Source: Methanobacteriota archaeon
GTDB taxonomy: Archaea; Thermoplasmatota; Poseidoniia; Poseidoniales; Poseidoniaceae
NCBI GenBank assembly: GCA_018662825.1
Contig: JABJFI010000074.1
Coordinates: 1-51,293 of the forward strand
Direction of reading: 5' to 3'
DNA: 51,293 nt
Both the position numbers and the translations under genes were made by a program. Shown in pieces: positions 4,461 through 10,486 of this stretch (positions are counted from its first letter, which is position 1; each line of letters begins with the position of its first letter). A model generated the notes under the pieces. That model had not been told where the DNA came from, made no database searches, and saw only the letters and a program-made list of their open reading frames with translations.

Positions 4461-5525
4461 TCACTCTGGTGGAATAGGGGGTGCATAGCCACCGTTAACT
4501 GCTTCCTGAACAATAGCCATATCGGAATCGACCATCATTTGGACCAATTCTTCAAAGGTAGTTCCTGGAACCCATCCAAGTTCTTTTTGAGCAAGTGCAG
4601 GGTCACCAATAAGCAAGTCAACTTCAGCAGGGCGGAAGAACTTGGGATTGGTTCGAACACGCACGTTCCCATTTTGGTCAGTTGCGATGGTATCTACGCC
4701 TTCGCCAGACCAAGTGAGATTCATTCCGACATGAGAGAAACCGAGTGTAATCATATCTCGGACACTGTGAGTTCGTCCGGTTGCGACAACATAGTCTCCG
4801 GGTTTGTCTTGTTGGAGCATCCGCCATTGCATTTCAACATAATCTCCAGCAAATCCCCAATCTCGCTTTGCATCGACATTTCCAATCCAAAGGCATTCAT
4901 CAAAACCATGGGCAATTCGTGCTGCGGTCATGGTCACTTTTCGAGTTACAAATTCAAGACCACGACGTGGACTTTCGTGGTTGAAAAGAATACCTGTGCA
5001 AGCAAACATATCGTAGGATTCACGATAATTACGGGTGATTTCGAAGGCGAAGACTTTCGCACATCCATATGGTGAACGTGGGTGGAATGGAGTAAGTTCA
5101 GTTTGAGGGACATCTCGAACTTTACCATATTGTTCCGATGAACCTGCTTGATAGAAACGGCAATTTGGAGCGTGCTTTCGAATTGCTTCAAGGCAACGAA
5201 GAGCACCCAAGCCAGTAATGTCTGCAGTCATCATAGGAGAACGCCACGATTCTGGAACAAAGGACATTGCTCCGAGGTTGTAGAATTCATCTGGTTGGGA
5301 TTGAGCCACTGCATTATCAATTGAATTTTGGTCAGCAAGGTCGCCGTTTACCAAATTGAAGTTTTCATTGCTCATCAAGTGATTTATGAGGCTTCGACCA
5401 GAGGTTGGTTGAGAGACTCTTCGAACCAAACCATAGACGGTGTAACCCTTTTCTAACAACAGTTCTGCAAGGTACGAACCGTCTTGACCAGTGATTCCAG
5501 TGACCATGGCTACCTTTCCGCTCAT
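4461..5525 (-). CDS. gmd: GDP-mannose 4,6-dehydratase
   Basis: Short-chain dehydrogenase that converts GDP-D-mannose to GDP-4-keto-6-deoxy-D-mannose, the precursor of GDP-fucose, rhamnose and related deoxysugars. The NADP-binding TGITGQDGSYLAELLL motif lies near residue 9. The catalytic elements are AGSSEQYGKV (S130, E131) and the YxxxK pair in SPYGCAKVF (Y153, K157). NHESPRRGLEFVTRKVT is characteristic of the GMD family. At 354 residues the length is normal. Transcription is leftward from a TATA-like site near 5568-5577, about 45 bases upstream of the ATG. With the two glycosyltransferases and the methyltransferase nearby, it probably supplies a deoxysugar for surface glycans (inference). 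Confidence 0.95.
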   Translation of the reverse strand: MSGKVAMVTGITGQDGSYLAELLLEKGYTVYGLVRRVSQPTSGRSLINHLMSNENFNLVNGDLADQNSIDNAVAQSQPDEFYNLGAMSFVPESWRSPMMTADITGLGALRCLEAIRKHAPNCRFYQAGSSEQYGKVRDVPQTELTPFHPRSPYGCAKVFAFEITRNYRESYDMFACTGILFNHESPRRGLEFVTRKVTMTAARIAHGFDECLWIGNVDAKRDWGFAGDYVEMQWRMLQQDKPGDYVVATGRTHSVRDMITLGFSHVGMNLTWSGEGVDTIATDQNGNVRVRTNPKFFRPAEVDLLIGDPALAQKELGWVPGTTFEELVQMMVDSDMAIVQEAVNGGYAPPIPPE

Positions 5526-5567
5526 GCCCTACCGTAGGCCCATCCCTTTTTCAATCGGTCGCGTGTT

Positions 5568-5577
5568 CGTATATCGA
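5568..5577. promoter_or_regulatory. TATA-like site between the divergent gmd and glycosyltransferase genes
   Basis: CGTATATCGA is nearly symmetrical. It lies about 45 bases upstream of the leftward gmd start and about 70 bases upstream of the rightward ATG at 5642. It could serve either or both directions, with start points near 5546 (left) and 5598 (right). No second TATA-like box is obvious between the genes. Confidence 0.35.
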
Positions 5578-5641
5578 AACTACACATCAATTTGACCGGT
5601 TAAGGGAGGATTTGAAGGGGAGTCGCCGGCTGTCGGGTTTA

Positions 5642-6928
5642 ATGGCTGAAACAATAGATGGGGAGAAGAGCGCACTACGCGTCCTCATTGTTCGTGGCTC
5701 TTTCGCCTCACTGGGAGGTGCTGAGCGGGAATTGCTTCAATTGATTCGAGCCACATCTCAACGCTGGGATGTCAGTTTGGCGAGTCTTGATTTAACTGAA
5801 GATGCTAAGGAATTGCTTGGAGATGCAACTGTGCGTCTATTTTTGCCGAAAGAATCGATGAAATGGCCGCAAGGTGCAGTTGCCGAAATTATGGCAAAAG
5901 CAAGCACTTCAGCTGAAAAAATGTGGAAGCAAATGGAAATCCCTTGGGATGAAATAGATGCTGTGCACATGTCGGTTTGTCGAGGAACTCTCGAACTTCT
6001 TCCTTTGATTCCAGCTCATTTACCCGTTCACTATCACTGTTTAGAGCCACCAAGATGGTTGTATGAAGATGTGCTTCATCGCCATTTGAATGGAGTTCCA
6101 AAGCGACCTTTGTGGTTGACAAAGATGCTGTTTACACGACAACGAAGACGTGACCAAAAATTTGTCAAAAGGCTTCTTAAGCGGCCAAAATCCTCTATTT
6201 CTGGAAATTCAATGTGGATTCAAAAGCGATTGAATACAGTCTATGGCCTGGTATGTGATGAGGCCAAAGAAAACGGCGAGGCTCCAAAACGTGACGTTGA
6301 TGGCCGACCATTGGAGGCGACACATGTCATGCATGTTATCGACTGGAACCGCTGGACCGAACATCCAACACAACAAGAAACTGATTCTCTCAAAGATATT
6401 CAAAATATTCCCGAAGAATACATCGTTACTGTTGGGCGTATATCTCATGTCAAGGGCACGTGGGAAACCTTGCAATCTCTTTCGAAGACTGGGCTTAGTT
6501 TAGTTCAAGTTGGTGGAGGTGACGATGCTGACAAAACTGCACTTATCGATGAAAGTAAACGGATTGGTGTCGATGTCGTTTGTATGCCTCGATTATCCCA
6601 AAATCAGTTATGTGCATTGATCCGAAAGGCTCGGGCAATGGTGAGTCATGCCCACCATGAACCGTTTGGACTTACACCGATTGAAGCAATGGCCATTGGC
6701 GTGCCCGCACTGATGGTTGATGAAGGTGGATTCTCATGCACCATGTCACCTGTTGAATCCGGACGGCTTCTTGGCCGTCATGACCTTGGGGCTTGGAAGG
6801 CATCCTACTTGGATGCGAAAGACCCTGCGCTACGAGAGGCATGGGCGAAGGCTGGACGGCCTTATGTTGAGAAACATTTCACCCTTGAAGTACAGATTGC
6901 TGCTCTTGAACGAATGTTTTCTGATTGA
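5642..6928 (+). CDS. Glycosyltransferase family 4-like (GT-B fold)
   Basis: Transfers a sugar from a nucleotide-sugar donor to a glycan or lipid acceptor at the cytoplasmic face of the membrane; the exact sugar is unknown. The N-terminal acceptor domain begins LRVLIVRGSFASLGGAE. The C-terminal donor domain has VTVGRISHVKGTW, a nucleotide-sugar site, and the E-x7-E signature in HHEPFGLTPIEAMAIGVPAL. No transmembrane segment is seen. The open frame begins at a TTG (5612), but GGGAGG lies only two bases before it. The ATG at 5642 still precedes the conserved region, so I prefer it; this choice is uncertain. The gene diverges from gmd and ends two bases before the promoter of the next operon. Confidence 0.85.
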   Translation: MAETIDGEKSALRVLIVRGSFASLGGAERELLQLIRATSQRWDVSLASLDLTEDAKELLGDATVRLFLPKESMKWPQGAVAEIMAKASTSAEKMWKQMEIPWDEIDAVHMSVCRGTLELLPLIPAHLPVHYHCLEPPRWLYEDVLHRHLNGVPKRPLWLTKMLFTRQRRRDQKFVKRLLKRPKSSISGNSMWIQKRLNTVYGLVCDEAKENGEAPKRDVDGRPLEATHVMHVIDWNRWTEHPTQQETDSLKDIQNIPEEYIVTVGRISHVKGTWETLQSLSKTGLSLVQVGGGDDADKTALIDESKRIGVDVVCMPRLSQNQLCALIRKARAMVSHAHHEPFGLTPIEAMAIGVPALMVDEGGFSCTMSPVESGRLLGRHDLGAWKASYLDAKDPALREAWAKAGRPYVEKHFTLEVQIAALERMFSD

Positions 6929-6931
6929 GAG

Positions 6932-6939
6932 TATATATT
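6932..6939 (+). promoter_or_regulatory. TATA box of the E1-JAMM operon, giving a probably leaderless transcript
   Basis: TATATATT lies immediately after the preceding stop codon. Its centre is about 26 bases before the ATG at 6961, the usual distance from an archaeal TATA box to the transcription start. The transcript would therefore begin at or very near that ATG and be leaderless, which fits the lack of a Shine-Dalgarno sequence there. Confidence 0.6.
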
Positions 6940-6960
6940 GAGTCGATTGCTTCCTTTCAC

Positions 6961-7617
6961 ATGGAAGAAGAATCTATGCCCAAAAACGTGCTTATCGTCG
7001 GTGCTGGCGGAATTGGAACAACCCTTGTTGAATTGATTGTACCTGCACTGGAACGCACTCAAATGAAAACCAAAATCACATTGATGGATGGAGATATTGT
7101 TGAGGCCACCAACCTTGGACATCAACGCTTCACGCATGATGAAATTGGTGAACCAAAGGTATCGGCTCTTTCTAAGCGATATACTGGTAAAACTGAATCT
7201 GTTGAACTTCAATCTCAAGTTGAAAATTTGCGAACAGCGGAACAACTTGAGGGGTATGATTTGGTTGTGATTTGTGTCGACAGGCCTGAACCGCGTCGCT
7301 TGGTTCATGCCCTTGATGTACCTTGGATTGACCTAAGATGCTCGGGCGATGGTTGGATGGTTCTTTCCTCTGATTCAGATTCGTCGTTAGTCAAACAAAT
7401 GACACCGGACCATGAGCCAATGAGTTGTCAGGTCGAGGGGGCATTGGATGCTGGAAACCTTGAATTTGGTTTTTCCGTTGCTGGCACCTTTGGCGCTCAG
7501 TGGCTGGTTCAGAAATTACGCAGCAGGCATGCACCTGCTCAATCGATTGGTAGCCTAACATATGGGAGCTTTGAATTCCCACGATTGAAAAATGAAAATA
7601 TGGAGGTGAAGGCATGA
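6961..7617 (+). CDS. E1/ThiF/MoeB-like adenylating enzyme
   Basis: E1-superfamily enzyme. Such proteins adenylate the C-terminus of a ubiquitin-like or sulfur-carrier protein, or of a peptide. Visible adenylation residues (218-residue form): GAGGIG at 14-19, the acidic pair in MDGDIVEATN (D43, D45) with N51, the arginine of GHQRF (R56), K66 in GEPKVSAL, and D107 in ICVDRPEPRR. C127 and C156 are candidate thioester cysteines. There is no CxxC zinc site like that of MoeB or ThiF, so it is a minimal adenylation domain. The frame is open back to a TTG at 6925; I chose the ATG at 6961 from the TATA spacing, and the ATG at 6976 is also possible. It is the first gene of an operon and overlaps the next by ATGA. 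The carrier protein is not evident. Confidence 0.87.
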   Translation: MEEESMPKNVLIVGAGGIGTTLVELIVPALERTQMKTKITLMDGDIVEATNLGHQRFTHDEIGEPKVSALSKRYTGKTESVELQSQVENLRTAEQLEGYDLVVICVDRPEPRRLVHALDVPWIDLRCSGDGWMVLSSDSDSSLVKQMTPDHEPMSCQVEGALDAGNLEFGFSVAGTFGAQWLVQKLRSRHAPAQSIGSLTYGSFEFPRLKNENMEVKA

Positions 7618-8165
7618 TATTCATTCCTGCTTTAGAACAACTCGACATTACTCAAGATGTCTGGGACCATGTGACAGAGAAGGCTGAACAACGCCAAATC
7701 GATGATGAGGTCCTCCTTGATGTCCAACACCGTGCCTCACAACTAGGGCGTTGGGATGTCGTCTATGCAATCTCTTACCTTGCTGGGCTTGAAACATCAG
7801 TTCTTATCGATGCTGAAAATGTCATCTCTATTGACTGGGGTACTTCTGGACAAGTTCAACTCTCGCCACCGGTTGGTTGCATCGCACCCTTCAAACTCTG
7901 GGTACATACTCATCCCGGTTTTGCTGCCTATTGGTCTGGAACTGATACTCGTAGTTTGTCAATCGGACTAGGAATTGTTGAGAAGGCAATGGTACTCGGT
8001 TCCCCTGGAGTCAAATGTACCCATAATGCTACCATGCTTCCTTTGAATTCTGATTCTCATCGCCTTTCGACATCAGGCTCATTGAGTGAATGGTCTGATG
8101 AAGAAGTGATTCAATGGGAAGATTGGTATGCTAACCATCTCAATGCAGAAGAGGTGAAACTATGA
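7614..8165 (+). CDS. JAMM/MPN-family metalloprotease (JAB domain)
   Basis: Zinc-dependent isopeptidase-like protein of 183 residues. The signature H-x-H-x7-S-x2-D is complete: H98, H100, S108, D111 in VHTHPGFAAYWSGTD. E60, or another acidic residue in the preceding strand, could be the catalytic glutamate. The family removes ubiquitin-like proteins from targets or trims carrier precursors. The start ATG overlaps the E1 stop as ATGA, and its own stop overlaps the next start in the same way, so the three proteins are almost certainly made together. No signal peptide is seen. E1 plus JAMM pairs are known from bacterial ubiquitin-like, sulfur-carrier and PRTRC-type gene clusters; which kind this is cannot be told from sequence alone. 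Confidence 0.87.
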   Translation: MIFIPALEQLDITQDVWDHVTEKAEQRQIDDEVLLDVQHRASQLGRWDVVYAISYLAGLETSVLIDAENVISIDWGTSGQVQLSPPVGCIAPFKLWVHTHPGFAAYWSGTDTRSLSIGLGIVEKAMVLGSPGVKCTHNATMLPLNSDSHRLSTSGSLSEWSDEEVIQWEDWYANHLNAEEVKL

Positions 8166-8401
8166 GTGGAGTTCGTAAACCAAAAGATGACGCTGAAAAG
8201 CTTCGTGCACGTATCGCCATCGCTCATGGGAAAGGTAAATCATTAGCAGATTTCATTGAAGATATTCTCAAGGAAAAACCAGAAAAGGAATTTGTTGAAG
8301 CGGTTCGGAATCGCATTGAACTTGCTCATGAGCAAGAAGAAACAATCGATATTATCAATCTGATCAAAGAGATGTCAGATATACAAAACCAATGGGCTTA
8401 A
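8162..8401 (+). CDS. 79-residue helical protein with a two-fold repeat, third gene of the E1-JAMM operon
   Basis: Not recognised as any known family. It is charged, predicted all-helical, and without cysteines. Residues 14-36 and 48-70 are related: both contain R-x-R-I-x-[IL]-A-H (R15/R49, R17/R51, I18/I52, A21/A55, H22/H56), followed at equal distance by S or T and a hydrophobic helix. It ends QNQWA, with no terminal GG, so it is not an obvious ubiquitin-like carrier. The ATGA overlap with the JAMM gene ties it to that system as a possible target, adaptor or regulator (inference). Its stop codon TAA directly abuts the stop codon of the convergent fatty-acid gene. Confidence 0.8.
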   Translation: MSGVRKPKDDAEKLRARIAIAHGKGKSLADFIEDILKEKPEKEFVEAVRNRIELAHEQEETIDIINLIKEMSDIQNQWA

Positions 8402-10486
8402 TCACGCATTAGAATAGGTAGGTTTTCTACCTTCGATTAATGCAGATAGACCTTCGAGTGAATCTGCTGTTGAAAAAATCTCAGTAAGTCGGTCAAGTTC
8501 CAATTGCAATCCTTGTGAAAGGTTTGTATTCACACTTTCATCAATCAACGCACTTGCCATAGACAAAGCAATCGGTGCCGTGCGCGAGAGTGATTTGAGT
8601 TGACGTGAGACATTACGGTCTTCGGCATCAAAACCAGTTGGGCATTTACCTGCCATCAAATCACCCATGTTTTCATCAGCGAAAAATGAACCCGAAAAAG
8701 TTGCAACCGCACTTTCTGGGTTGGCAGGACAACCTGGGTATTTGTTCTCTGGCTTTCCATTTATAGCAAGTTCAGCCACACAAGCATTGACGCCAGATAC
8801 ATCGACTAGATGAGTTAGTAATCCGAGGTCTGCTGCGGTGGAAGCATCCATGAAATTCCCTGCAAGAACAGCCCATCGGGCGGCTGGAATACCACTGATT
8901 CGAGCAGGTCTCTGTGAGCCTCCAAGGCCCGGATAGATTCCAATTGAAGTCTCAGGGAAACGGAATTGTGTTCGGCGAGTTCCAACACGATAATCGCACG
9001 ACAAGGCTAATTCTAGGCCACCACCAAGGGCAAGGCCGGTTGTCAATGCTACAGTCGTTTTGGATGATGACTCAAGTTTGTCAAGAACAACATGGCCGTT
9101 GGCAGTAAATTCCACGATGTCAGGGATGGAATCAGCACGTATTTTGTCAACAAAGAATTTGACATCTGCACCTGCTACGAAGGCTTTTCCAGCGCCATCT
9201 AATACAATCGTGTGGACTGAATCATTCGCATTGACGTTATCCAAAGCCTCTTCAAGTTGAGAAACAACTGTTTCGTTGAGCGCATTCATTGCCTCTGGTC
9301 GATTGATTGTTATGGTAGCGATTCCATTTTCAATGGCGGTATCAACATAAGAAAAGGTCCAATTTACATCTCCTTGGTCAGCAAAGAATTGTGGTACATT
9401 CCAAGAATTAGAAGGGTCAGATTCAGCGGCCAAGTCTGCATAATTTTGAGCCATACGACAGGAAGCACCAACGCCAACTTTATTCATCAATTCAAATGGA
9501 CCACGAGCCCAACGAAGTCCTACTTTTGCTCCACGGTCAACATCTTCCATCGAACAGACGCCTTCATCAACAATTTGTGCTGCTACACCGAAAACAACAC
9601 CATACAAGCGTTCTGAAATGGTGGTGTACTGTTCATCGGAATATGATTCATCACCATCGATACTCCATTGTTCATTGGCTTGAATCAAATCACGCAGATT
9701 TTGTGCGCCGTTGTAGCGAGGCGTATGCAATTGCTCAGACAAATAATCGGTTGAATGAAGAGCAATCGGTGGACCTGTGAGGTTCATCAATCCAAATGGT
9801 CCAAGACCGATTCGAAATGCCTTACGAGCTGCTGCATCAATTTGAGCAGCCGAAGCAACACCTTCTTCCAGTAACAAGCAAGCCTCATTCAACCAAGGAA
9901 CGAAGAATCGATTGACAACAAAACCAGGCCGGTCCGCACAGACGATGACAACCTTGCCAAGCATCTTACAATATTGCACGACTTTTTCAACCGTTTCAGG
10001 ACTTGATGCGTGTGCAGGAATTACTTCTACCAAGCGATTTTTGGCAGGGTGATAAAAGAAATGCAATCCAACAAATCGGTCTGCACGACCAGTTGCTTCA
10101 GCCAATGCATTGACCGACAATGAAGAAGTGTTTGATGCAAGGATTGTATCAGGGCCACATGCTTTGTCAAGCGTATTGAAAACTGCGGTTTTGATATCAA
10201 AGTCTTCGAACACCGCCTCAATTACCAAATCTGTATCTTGCGCCGTGTTTTCAACACCAACAACACCGGTGATTCGACCCTCAATCGCTTCGACTTGGGT
10301 AGGTGAAAATATCCGGCGTTCAACAGCCTCTGAAAGAAAATTTGTGATGATGCTTTGACCTCTGTCAACCCATTGTTGTTCTCTGTCAACCATTTGAACA
10401 TCAAATTCTTCTTGAGCTGTTTTTTGAGCAATACCGGAACCCATGTTCCCCGCCCCGACAATCGCTACACGCTGAATAGGTTGCAT
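8402..10486 (-). CDS. Bifunctional 3-hydroxyacyl-CoA dehydrogenase / enoyl-CoA hydratase
   Basis: A 694-residue fusion for two successive steps of fatty-acid beta-oxidation (hydration of enoyl-CoA, then NAD-dependent oxidation), or the reverse steps in a hydroxybutyrate route. The dehydrogenase is N-terminal: VAIVGAGNMGSGIAQ near residue 8, NTSSLSVNALAEAT, GLHFFYHPAKNRLVEVIP and DRPGFVVNRFF. The hydratase is C-terminal (from about residue 385): ITINRPEAMNALN, the oxyanion segment FVAGADVKFF, and the two glutamate motifs GGGLELAL and FPETSIGIYPGLGG. This domain order is the archaeal one and opposite to bacterial FadB. The active-site residues I can check are present. Chain-length preference is unknown. 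Confidence 0.93.
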   Translation of the reverse strand: MQPIQRVAIVGAGNMGSGIAQKTAQEEFDVQMVDREQQWVDRGQSIITNFLSEAVERRIFSPTQVEAIEGRITGVVGVENTAQDTDLVIEAVFEDFDIKTAVFNTLDKACGPDTILASNTSSLSVNALAEATGRADRFVGLHFFYHPAKNRLVEVIPAHASSPETVEKVVQYCKMLGKVVIVCADRPGFVVNRFFVPWLNEACLLLEEGVASAAQIDAAARKAFRIGLGPFGLMNLTGPPIALHSTDYLSEQLHTPRYNGAQNLRDLIQANEQWSIDGDESYSDEQYTTISERLYGVVFGVAAQIVDEGVCSMEDVDRGAKVGLRWARGPFELMNKVGVGASCRMAQNYADLAAESDPSNSWNVPQFFADQGDVNWTFSYVDTAIENGIATITINRPEAMNALNETVVSQLEEALDNVNANDSVHTIVLDGAGKAFVAGADVKFFVDKIRADSIPDIVEFTANGHVVLDKLESSSKTTVALTTGLALGGGLELALSCDYRVGTRRTQFRFPETSIGIYPGLGGSQRPARISGIPAARWAVLAGNFMDASTAADLGLLTHLVDVSGVNACVAELAINGKPENKYPGCPANPESAVATFSGSFFADENMGDLMAGKCPTGFDAEDRNVSRQLKSLSRTAPIALSMASALIDESVNTNLSQGLQLELDRLTEIFSTADSLEGLSALIEGRKPTYSNA

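Follow-up and report, generated by a model that had tools for sequence, protein, structure and literature searches.

What does an operon for an E1-like activating enzyme and a JAMM protease act on when it contains no gene for a carrier? Few microbes at the ocean surface are as abundant as the Marine Group II archaea (Poseidoniales). In one of their genomes we analysed a stretch of 51,293 nucleotides, called the window here, which holds such an operon together with a gene for a small protein of 79 residues. The most probable answer, to which we would give a probability of about 0.8 from sequence comparisons, is that the operon provides the enzymes for activation and processing at the core of a chromosomal system for ubiquitin-like conjugation.

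The operon and its two enzymes

The three genes lie on the forward strand. They encode an E1-like (ThiF/MoeB-fold) activating enzyme of 218 residues counted from its ATG (6961..7617; PF00899, 7.3e-18), a JAMM/MPN+ metallopeptidase of 183 residues (7614..8165), recognised by its motif and its PDB profile matches, and a small charged protein, probably helical, of 79 residues (8162..8401). An earlier sequence-only reading had described two ATGA overlaps, between E1 and JAMM and between JAMM and the small gene, the lack of a carrier gene within the operon and a TATA box spaced for a leaderless-type start, and all of these were confirmed. The TATA-like box (agtatatatt, 6930..6939, forward strand) lies about 30 nt 5' of the E1 start codon, and its best match to TTTATATA begins 31 nt upstream of the ATG. 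Its position is common to relatives. Of 24 that were tried 20 had a usable ATG, which in five of the 20 is upstream of the aligned start; their best TATA match in the region 15–45 nt upstream averages 5.8 of 8, as opposed to 3.9 of 8 in control stretches, and in 17 relatives it falls between −28 and −33. Among 24 loci taken from the family to which the window belongs, 17 have the same downstream neighbour, a sign that the operon has a settled place in the chromosome. The dN/dS ratio over the three genes is 0.036–0.125, values to be taken as indicative because dS exceeds 1 in all eight usable comparisons; the other ten of 18 were dropped (nine misoriented reverse-strand loci and one with infinite dS).

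Both enzymes were aligned with relatives, in 20 rows each, hand-chosen out of 41 loci with 38 E1 and 36 JAMM matches (alignments A5 and A6 have 20 rows each and A7 has 21). Within the E1 the nucleotide loop lies near 7000-7017 on the forward strand, and residues G14, G16, G17, D43, D45, N51, Q55, K66, D107, R112 and C156 (codon 7426-7428) are kept in all 20 rows, so that the retention of the adenylation residues is borne out in these relatives. The protease motif HTHPGFAAYWSGTD is a complete H-x-H-x7-S-x2-D, as had been claimed; its residues (codons 7905-7946) and Glu60 (codon 7791-7793) are invariant in the 20 chosen rows, some of which have six residues in the gap. The Pfam Prok-JAB match of the window protein is weak (0.026), while all 17 PDB matches of the JAMM profile at E ≤10 are JAMM peptidases, from the best at 0.0021 to BilC, the weakest, at 1.1. 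Among them is a 26S N11-like entry, presumably Rpn11 of Caldiarchaeum subterraneum.

Across 193 genomes of the order, E1 and JAMM are found together in 90, JAMM alone in five and a strong E1 (E <1e-15) alone in two; the two genes are thus not usually apart, and in five loci they are fused (L116, L117, L119, L121, L124). The presence sets were compiled by hand from profile-match listings of genomes that are related to one another, and absences are soft because these genomes are listed as 70–97% complete. At least one genome (G177) holds a fragment identical to the window E1, probably a contamination, which was kept in the counts.

One alternative is a sulfur-carrier system, where the E1 would lead to thiocarboxylation of a ubiquitin-like protein (Ubl), the JAMM would only trim its precursor and the product would serve cofactor or tRNA thiolation. 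The enzyme is indeed short and lacks a separate cysteine domain, its C156 aligns to a cysteine of ThiF (1zud), and the best named models are PRTRC_ThiF and ThiF. However, PRTRC_ThiF (TIGR03736), the top NCBIfam model, scores 50.3 bits against a cutoff of 144.75, and the scores against ThiF (46.5 against 275.25), MoeB (32.2 against 266) and UbaA (35.4 against 450) are equally far under their curated cutoffs, which argues that this is not a housekeeping MoeB/ThiF. Membership of the PRTRC group was dropped on the same score. No rhodanese domain was found in the E1 by the Pfam search, and no sulfur, thiamine or molybdenum gene was read beside the E1 in an unsystematic reading of its neighbours.

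The small protein

A second alternative follows from the PDB, where the best profile match of the E1 family is MccB. The E1 would then modify the C-terminus of the 79-residue protein, with the JAMM as maturation protease, and the translational coupling of the small gene would fit this. The profile of the gene (P0002) matches in 74 of the 193 genomes, and most relatives with JAMM have it, as it is detectable in 72 of these 95; by reading, a short ORF follows JAMM immediately on the 3' side in 28 of 36 loci. Nevertheless, no residue is invariant among the aligned small proteins, at the C-terminus or elsewhere. Five loci (L099, L100, L115, L126, L128) have E1, JAMM and Ubl but no short ORF directly behind JAMM, L100 having a 77-residue ORF slightly farther downstream. 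The internal repeat of the small protein is weak (score 39, reached by one of 300 shuffles). With Ubl, moreover, present in 88 of the 97 genomes that have E1 or JAMM, an MccB-like action on the 79-residue protein was rejected as very improbable. The earlier suggestion that peptides are attached to or removed from this protein likewise found no support, given the lack of an invariant residue where a Ubl with a GG or AG tail is at hand. In the conjugation system that we favour, the small protein would be a frequent partner of E1 and JAMM, for example an adaptor, and this role is the least certain step of the scheme.

The putative ubiquitin-like tag and the cysteine-domain proteins

Elsewhere in the window genome, on contig C118, a gene for a 144-residue precursor joins two Ubls head to tail (L161:7860-8294; profile match G000:C118:7866-8288). 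The operon is therefore not self-contained, as the sequence-only reading had it, and that reading's other proposal, a carrier encoded elsewhere, is supported by this tandem gene, by strong co-occurrence and by relatives in which a Ubl of about 70 residues ending LVGG adjoins the E1 or is fused to it. Its expectation that the carrier would end in GG held only in part, as the tandem Ubl was found but its units end AGK and AGQ instead. Ubl-Ubl-E1 fusions occur in three loci (L108, L112, L113) and a fusion of Ubl with an E2-like domain in one (L111). Among 62 Ubl-bearing frames, some of which may be counted twice because the loci from which they were taken overlap and genes are cut at locus ends, 27 hold two to four copies, and in 50 the last copy ends in GG or AG plus one to three residues.

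The Ubl is unrecognised by Pfam. Of 154 PDB matches of its profile at E ≤10, 60 were listed, and nearly all of these belong to ubiquitin or polyubiquitin and align in register up to the GG; single ubiquitins reach E values of just about 0.04–0.35 against the profile by sequence. Two AlphaFold2 models were made from other genomes than that of the window, one of the L302 Ubl (from a contig labelled Acidiferrobacter) and one of the L283 cysteine domain. The Ubl model is a beta-grasp fold (E-E-H-E-E-h-E, pLDDT 82). About 35 of the 50 Foldseek hits listed for it bear the name of a ubiquitin, a SUMO or a Ubl, with a best E of 0.022 (none below 0.001), probabilities up to 0.97 and TM scores of 0.35–0.56.

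The cysteine domain is a candidate E2. Three proteins with this domain are encoded in the window genome, on contigs C99, C87 and C120. A fourth, weak match on C55 (E 0.49) was left out of the count. The modelled L283 domain has an E2-like topology (H-E-E-E-E, Cys80, H). Its best Foldseek match is frataxin (E 0.25), and six chains among the top 50, taken as E2s by entry title, have E values of 0.8–2.4 and TM scores under 0.4; searches of Pfam, NCBIfam and the PDB gave no sequence match. None of these fold matches is significant, and they do not confirm the domain as an E2. The cysteine is present in all five rows picked by neighbourhood and in every covering profile match (28 matches in named-genome loci, 66 in viral loci, two not covering). 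These counts test it more fairly than alignments A4 (19 of 26 cores) and A8 (12 of those plus six new), where its invariance is partly by construction because the pattern with which the 26 cores were cut demands a cysteine. Several of the proteins have CxxC pairs, by eye, and the scanned proteins gave no match to a RING.

Both components follow the operon across the order. Ubl occurs in just three of the 96 genomes that lack E1 and JAMM, and the E2-like domain in 93 of the 97 with either enzyme as opposed to 12 of the 96 without. The same is seen within the window's genus (with as opposed to without: Ubl 28 of 30 and two of eight; E2-like 30 of 30 and three of eight). In a phylum-wide sample of 292 genomes, Ubl was found in 37, all listed under the window's order. 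This association of the E1 with tandem Ubl precursors, an E2-like cysteine domain and JAMM also speaks against the sulfur carrier, an improbable alternative, and a plain role of that kind was rejected.

Under the conjugation reading, the JAMM would cut the precursor after (G/A)G, so that each freed Ubl ends in a glycine, and would afterwards strip Ubls from their targets. The E1 would adenylate the glycine and then probably load the Ubl onto Cys156, from which E2-like proteins may accept it on their conserved cysteine for transfer to target lysines. The CxxC pairs may bind zinc and recognise targets.

Related systems and the viral gene set

Bacterial poly-Ubl operons, as set out in Table 1 of PMC1779556 (row 6e), combine one to three tandem Ubl domains, an E1-like protein with a fused or adjacent JAB, an E2-fold domain and a metal-binding protein with the signature C-x3-C-x35-38-H-x2-C, the Ubl being also fused to the E2-fold domain, while row 6d lists a single Ubl, a JAB with a JAB-N domain, E1, E2-like and an alpha-helical protein. 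The archaeal genes share with row 6e the tandem Ubl, in two copies in the window genome, and an E1 adjacent or fused to JAMM. They differ from it in that the E2-fold domain there has no cysteine, whereas the cysteine is kept here in a putative E2 fold, and in that the bacterial operons are sporadic, whereas here the genes are archaeal with a settled chromosomal place and a Ubl that is unlinked in the window genome; Pfam, moreover, recognises neither Ubl nor E2-like domain here. A variant, not seen before, of the prokaryotic poly-Ubl kind would seem to be the best reading. The clusters of row 6d we take to be of PRTRC type. The window E1 resembles these in its top NCBIfam model, though far below cutoff, and Ubl is tandem here but single there.

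Haloarchaea have the SAMP/UbaA system, with an archaeal Ubl with a GG tail, one E1 and a JAMM desampylase. Conjugation there, in the account available to us, needs no E2 or E3, unlike the scheme above, and the window E1 falls far short of the UbaA model. For archaea, the sources at hand describe SAMP/Urm1-type systems, which have no E2, and one that resembles the eukaryotic system, in Caldiarchaeum. The latter, in C. subterraneum, has archaeal ubiquitin, E1, E2 and DUB (PMC11354881, PMC5654768) and differs, on the passages available, by a RING E3 and by the cysteine domain of its E1. The antiviral bacterial BilABCD system, as outlined in the accessible text of PMC11354881, comprises a Ubl with two Ubl domains, E1, E2 and JAMM, and shares with the present set the Ubl pair, the E1 and a JAMM, the profile of which matches BilC weakly. 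The two Bil domains, however, form one ISG15-like protein, whereas here every repeat terminates in (G/A)G, which gives the look of a precursor.

That likeness raises the question whether the conjugation system serves antiviral defence (Bil- or CBASS-like) and not housekeeping. The distribution is patchy, 84 of the 193 genomes having none of the four parts, a parallel set occurs on viral contigs, and bacterial relatives act in defence, in CBASS (PMC10097602) and by Ubl conjugation against phage assembly (PMC12660748), as far as the available portions of these papers report. The shared downstream neighbour argues otherwise, as does the Ubl gene, which adjoins RNA polymerase P-like and RFC-like genes (named by reading). 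In PADLOC the E1 matches just the adenylation region of E1-E2 models, the known anti-phage E1-E2 system (an E2-E1 protein with defence partners) was not recovered and the JAMM has no match. A dedicated defence role would therefore seem unlikely, though less so than the sulfur carrier.

The marine viral contigs that carry a similar gene set look archaeal. When 80 kept viral E1 loci were searched over the whole stretch with the host-protein profiles (E ≤0.01), Ubl was found in 45, E2-like in 66 (54 below 1e-3) and JAMM in 59, with all four parts together in 28, which independently replicates the association seen in the host genomes; shuffled ORFs gave no matches. This supersedes a looser count within five genes of the E1 (JAMM by profile or motif in 65 of 80, Ubl in 16). 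The L302 Ubl has no match in the phage collection at E 0.01. Nor does the window E1 at E 1e-8, and its single plasmid match, to Nostoc, is weak. In an E1 tree made by a quick method, 28 viral rows, thinned from the 80, and 25 host rows fall on opposite sides of one branch (SH-aLRT 97), and recent host–virus exchange of the E1 was rejected on this result.

A wider picture, which we hold tentatively, is that Marine Group II runs its own complete ubiquitin-like signalling (with a precursor like polyubiquitin, a single E1, a single JAMM and several E2-like/zinc ligases dedicated to it), while viruses carry a separate, anciently diverged full set of Ubl, E1, E2-like and JAMM that overwrites or opposes host tagging. 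If true, this would be a ubiquitin-type virus–host contest within archaea. According to the part of PMC8276007 at our disposal, few auxiliary genes are as prevalent in archaeal viruses as a ThiF/MoeB gene, and the viral gene set may explain this prevalence. A tandem-Ubl system with cysteine-domain proteins across the planktonic Poseidoniales would add a separate example of ubiquitin-like cascades, and it would make testable the origin of polyubiquitin-like precursors, the diversification of E2-like proteins and viral fights over tags outside eukaryotes.

The operon and its relatives

The three genes of the operon lie on the forward strand, where the sequence-only reading had placed them: an E1-like gene at 6961-7617 (ThiF match, 7.3e-18), a JAMM gene at 7614-8165 and the gene for the 79-residue small protein at 8162-8401, joined by two ATGA overlaps. 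The proposed TATA box is found as a TATA-like stretch at 6930-6939, spaced as in leaderless archaeal promoters, and its position is common to relatives. Among the 20 usable of 24 relatives tried, the best match 15-45 nt upstream averages 5.8/8 vs 3.9/8 in controls and falls at -28 to -33 in 17. Upstream of the operon is a glycosyltransferase-like gene (5612-6928), and on the reverse strand at 8402-10486 is a hydroxyacyl-CoA dehydrogenase/enoyl-CoA hydratase-like gene, which is a syntenic anchor; both are named from reading the sequence. The downstream family c1, assigned by reading as hydroxyacyl-CoA dehydrogenase-like, is common to 17 of 24 loci sampled from the window's family.

Both enzymes had been described as having intact active-site residues, and across 20 rows chosen by hand out of 41 loci these are kept: Gly14, Gly16, Gly17, Asp43, Asp45, Asn51, Gln55, Lys66, Asp107, Arg112 and Cys156 of the E1 and Glu60, His98, His100, Ser108 and Asp111 of the JAMM protein. 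In a pairwise alignment Cys156 is opposite a cysteine of ThiF (1zud). The Pfam match of the JAMM gene is weak (0.026), while every PDB match of a profile built from 20 relatives (17 with E up to 10; best 0.0021) is a JAMM peptidase; AMSH-like, STAMBP, sst2, Rpn11-like and BilC proteins are among them.

Of 193 genomes of the order, 95 have JAMM, 92 a strong E1 and 74 the small protein. E1 and JAMM are paired in 90 genomes, with JAMM alone in five and E1 alone in two, and are thus seldom found apart; the small gene is detected by sequence match in 72 of the 95 JAMM genomes. Reading 36 JAMM loci by eye showed a short ORF directly 3′ of JAMM in 28. A scan of named genomes gave 101 relatives; titles among the best 80 of these are Poseidoniales, Poseidoniaceae, Poseidonia, euryarchaeote or Thermoplasmata(-ota), except for two MAGs labelled as bacteria (L271 and L302), which are probably mislabelled or contaminated and carry Poseidoniales-type loci. 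One relative locus is the MG-II chromosome CM001443.1, a record public since 2012. A fragment in a genome of another family (G177:C106) is 100% identical to the window's E1 and is probably contamination or mislabelling.

A ubiquitin-like carrier

Several relatives have, ahead of E1, a gene for a ubiquitin-like (Ubl) protein of ~70 residues with the tail LPGLVGG plus one or more residues. Ubl-Ubl-E1 fusions occur in three loci (L108, L112 and L113), and a Ubl is fused with an E2-like domain in L111. Built from eight such proteins, profile A1 has matches (E up to 0.01) in 91 of the 193 genomes. One of these is the window's own genome, with the match at 7866-8288 of contig C118. The carrier that had been suggested to lie elsewhere in the genome would be encoded by this gene (L161:7860-8294), which has two tandem Ubl copies with the tails ...ALQAGK and ...ALLAGQ; downstream are RNA polymerase P-like and RFC-like genes (names by reading).

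In 62 Ubl frames from the loci compared, some cut by contig or locus ends, there is one copy in 35, two in 19, three in seven and four in one. The last copy finishes with GG or AG followed by one to three residues in 50 of these frames, and the 36 internal copies have a GG tail in 27 and an AG tail in nine. Searched against the PDB with a limit of E 10, a profile of 45 Ubls gave 154 matches, led by ubiquitin and polyubiquitin, and nearly all of the best 60 of 154 are ubiquitin. The very low E-values are due to repeated domains; single ubiquitins score 0.036 to about 0.35 and align in register up to the terminal GG. The L302 Ubl is predicted by AlphaFold2 as a beta-grasp (pLDDT 82, pTM 0.66), and about 35 of the 50 Foldseek matches listed, none below E 0.001, are named ubiquitin, SUMO or Ubl structures, a bacterial E1-E2-Ubl complex included. 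We regard both the Ubl assignment and the linkage as strong.

Some Ubl genes depart from this pattern. L289:8550-10001 encodes two tandem copies, identical over about 67 positions and fused to a further domain, which by analogy would resemble the concerted evolution of polyubiquitin. Paralogues with the tail ...VAGLV, VAGRV or VAGRA, not LVGGx, occur in L118, L129, L130, L184 and L186, and in the first three a gene read as transcription-factor-B-like (c42) is nearby. In L295 an AAA ATPase (4550-6223; PF00004, 4e-20) is fused with a Ubl domain, which points to a connection with a machine for unfolding or degradation; next to E1 are another Ubl gene and one for an E2-like protein.

An E2-like cysteine domain

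Neighbours of Ubl, E1 and JAMM have a domain in common, whose pattern is G-x-S-G-x2-Y ... (I/L)C(I/L)(H/D) ... GD ... LAL-x-(N/D)D. Since some cores had been cut with a pattern requiring the cysteine, its conservation was rechecked: it is kept in 5/5 rows chosen by neighbourhood and in all profile matches covering the site, namely 66 from viral loci and 28 from named-genome loci, where two further matches leave it out. The gene directly follows the small-protein gene in some relatives (L234, L246 and others). A model of the L283 domain has the E2 topology of helix, four strands, cysteine and helix (pLDDT 82, pTM 0.76). Foldseek with this model gave nothing significant, the best match being frataxin (E 0.25); six chains taken for E2s from the entry title are among the 50 matches listed, at E 0.8-2.4. 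As sequence-library searches also gave no convincing match, we name the domain only "E2-like", with moderate confidence.

The window's genome encodes three such proteins, of 291 aa (C99), 824 aa (C87) and 223 aa (C120). By eye, several E2-like proteins carry CxxC pairs, which may bind zinc. The C87 protein (L387:304-2778) has N-terminal CxxC pairs and the E2-like domain mid-protein, and is a possible E2/E3-like hybrid; frames of about 690-850 aa with the domain occur in many relatives.

With relatedness ignored, Ubl is found in 88/97 genomes with E1 or JAMM vs 3/96 without (Fisher 4e-40), and the E2-like domain in 93/97 vs 12/96; 82 of the 193 genomes hold all four parts and 84 none. The association still holds within the window's genus (Ubl 28/30 vs 2/8, p 2.5e-4; E2-like 30/30 vs 3/8, p 1.1e-4).

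Viral counterparts and known systems

Scanning viral contigs with the E1 profile gave 247 relatives, of which the best 80, at 29-38% identity, were kept. With profiles from host proteins only (E up to 0.01), Ubl was found in 45 of these 80 stretches (best 4.8e-24), the E2-like domain in 66 (best 2.3e-8; 54 below 1e-3), JAMM in 59 and all four parts in 28; shuffled ORFs of the stretches gave no profile matches. The 57 stretches that extend 6.5 kb or more to each side give counts of 39, 51, 40 and 24. In L342 the genes run Ubl, E2-like, TFIIB-like, E1, JAMM and chaperonin; Pfam matches the TFIIB-like gene to Zn_Ribbon_TF at 1.1e-5, which falls short of the cutoff, and the chaperonin to Cpn60_TCP1 at 5e-45. 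BLAST with these two genes found the TFIIB-like gene in 53 of the 80 loci, the chaperonin in 28 and both in 22. Magroviruses, which are viruses of Marine Group II, look similar, and Marine Group II is the inferred host of the contigs here. One branch (support 97) separates host from viral E1s, so any transfer would be old. Viral Ubls (L306-L385) end exactly at GG in 22/45 cases vs 1/62 host frames, and many may therefore need no processing. On a host-labelled contig (L099; QQRY01000027.1 / G130:C20), a 1282-aa protein (6582-10430) whose RNA polymerase domain is of the single-subunit, T7 type (PF00940, 1.4e-46) is encoded beside c11 (a neighbour-gene family), Ubl, E1 and JAMM. This suggests that some Ubl-linked copies may sit on mobile elements; the L099 region may belong to a Marine Group II virus or mobile element.

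Judged by title, abstract start or passages of mostly non-subscription papers, we found no description of this system. The main text of three magrovirus or Poseidoniales-virus papers contains none of the words 'ubiquitin', 'ThiF' and 'JAB'. According to published work, a MoeB/ThiF gene linked to ubiquitination ranks with the most prevalent auxiliary genes that archaeal viruses carry (PMC8276007, 2021), Borgs encode many JAMM desampylase-like proteins (PMC12660748, 2025), and no archaeal E2-like protein had been detected as of 2010 (PMC2948915). The UCH and RING genes that PMC4327156 (2014) reports for one Marine Group II single cell differ from the E1/JAMM/Ubl/E2-like set.

The operon encodes the E1, JAMM and small protein of what is very probably a chromosomal system for ubiquitin-like conjugation, with the gene for its tag at another site in the genome. 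The system probably works like a prokaryotic poly-Ubl system, bacterial operons of Ubl, JAB, E1 and E2-like genes, tandem Ubls among them, being described in PMC1779556 (2006). As given there, the bacterial poly-Ubl class has an E2 fold without the cysteine, whereas the E2-like domain here keeps it; lacking that class-defining feature, the system would be a variant apart from the described bacterial class.
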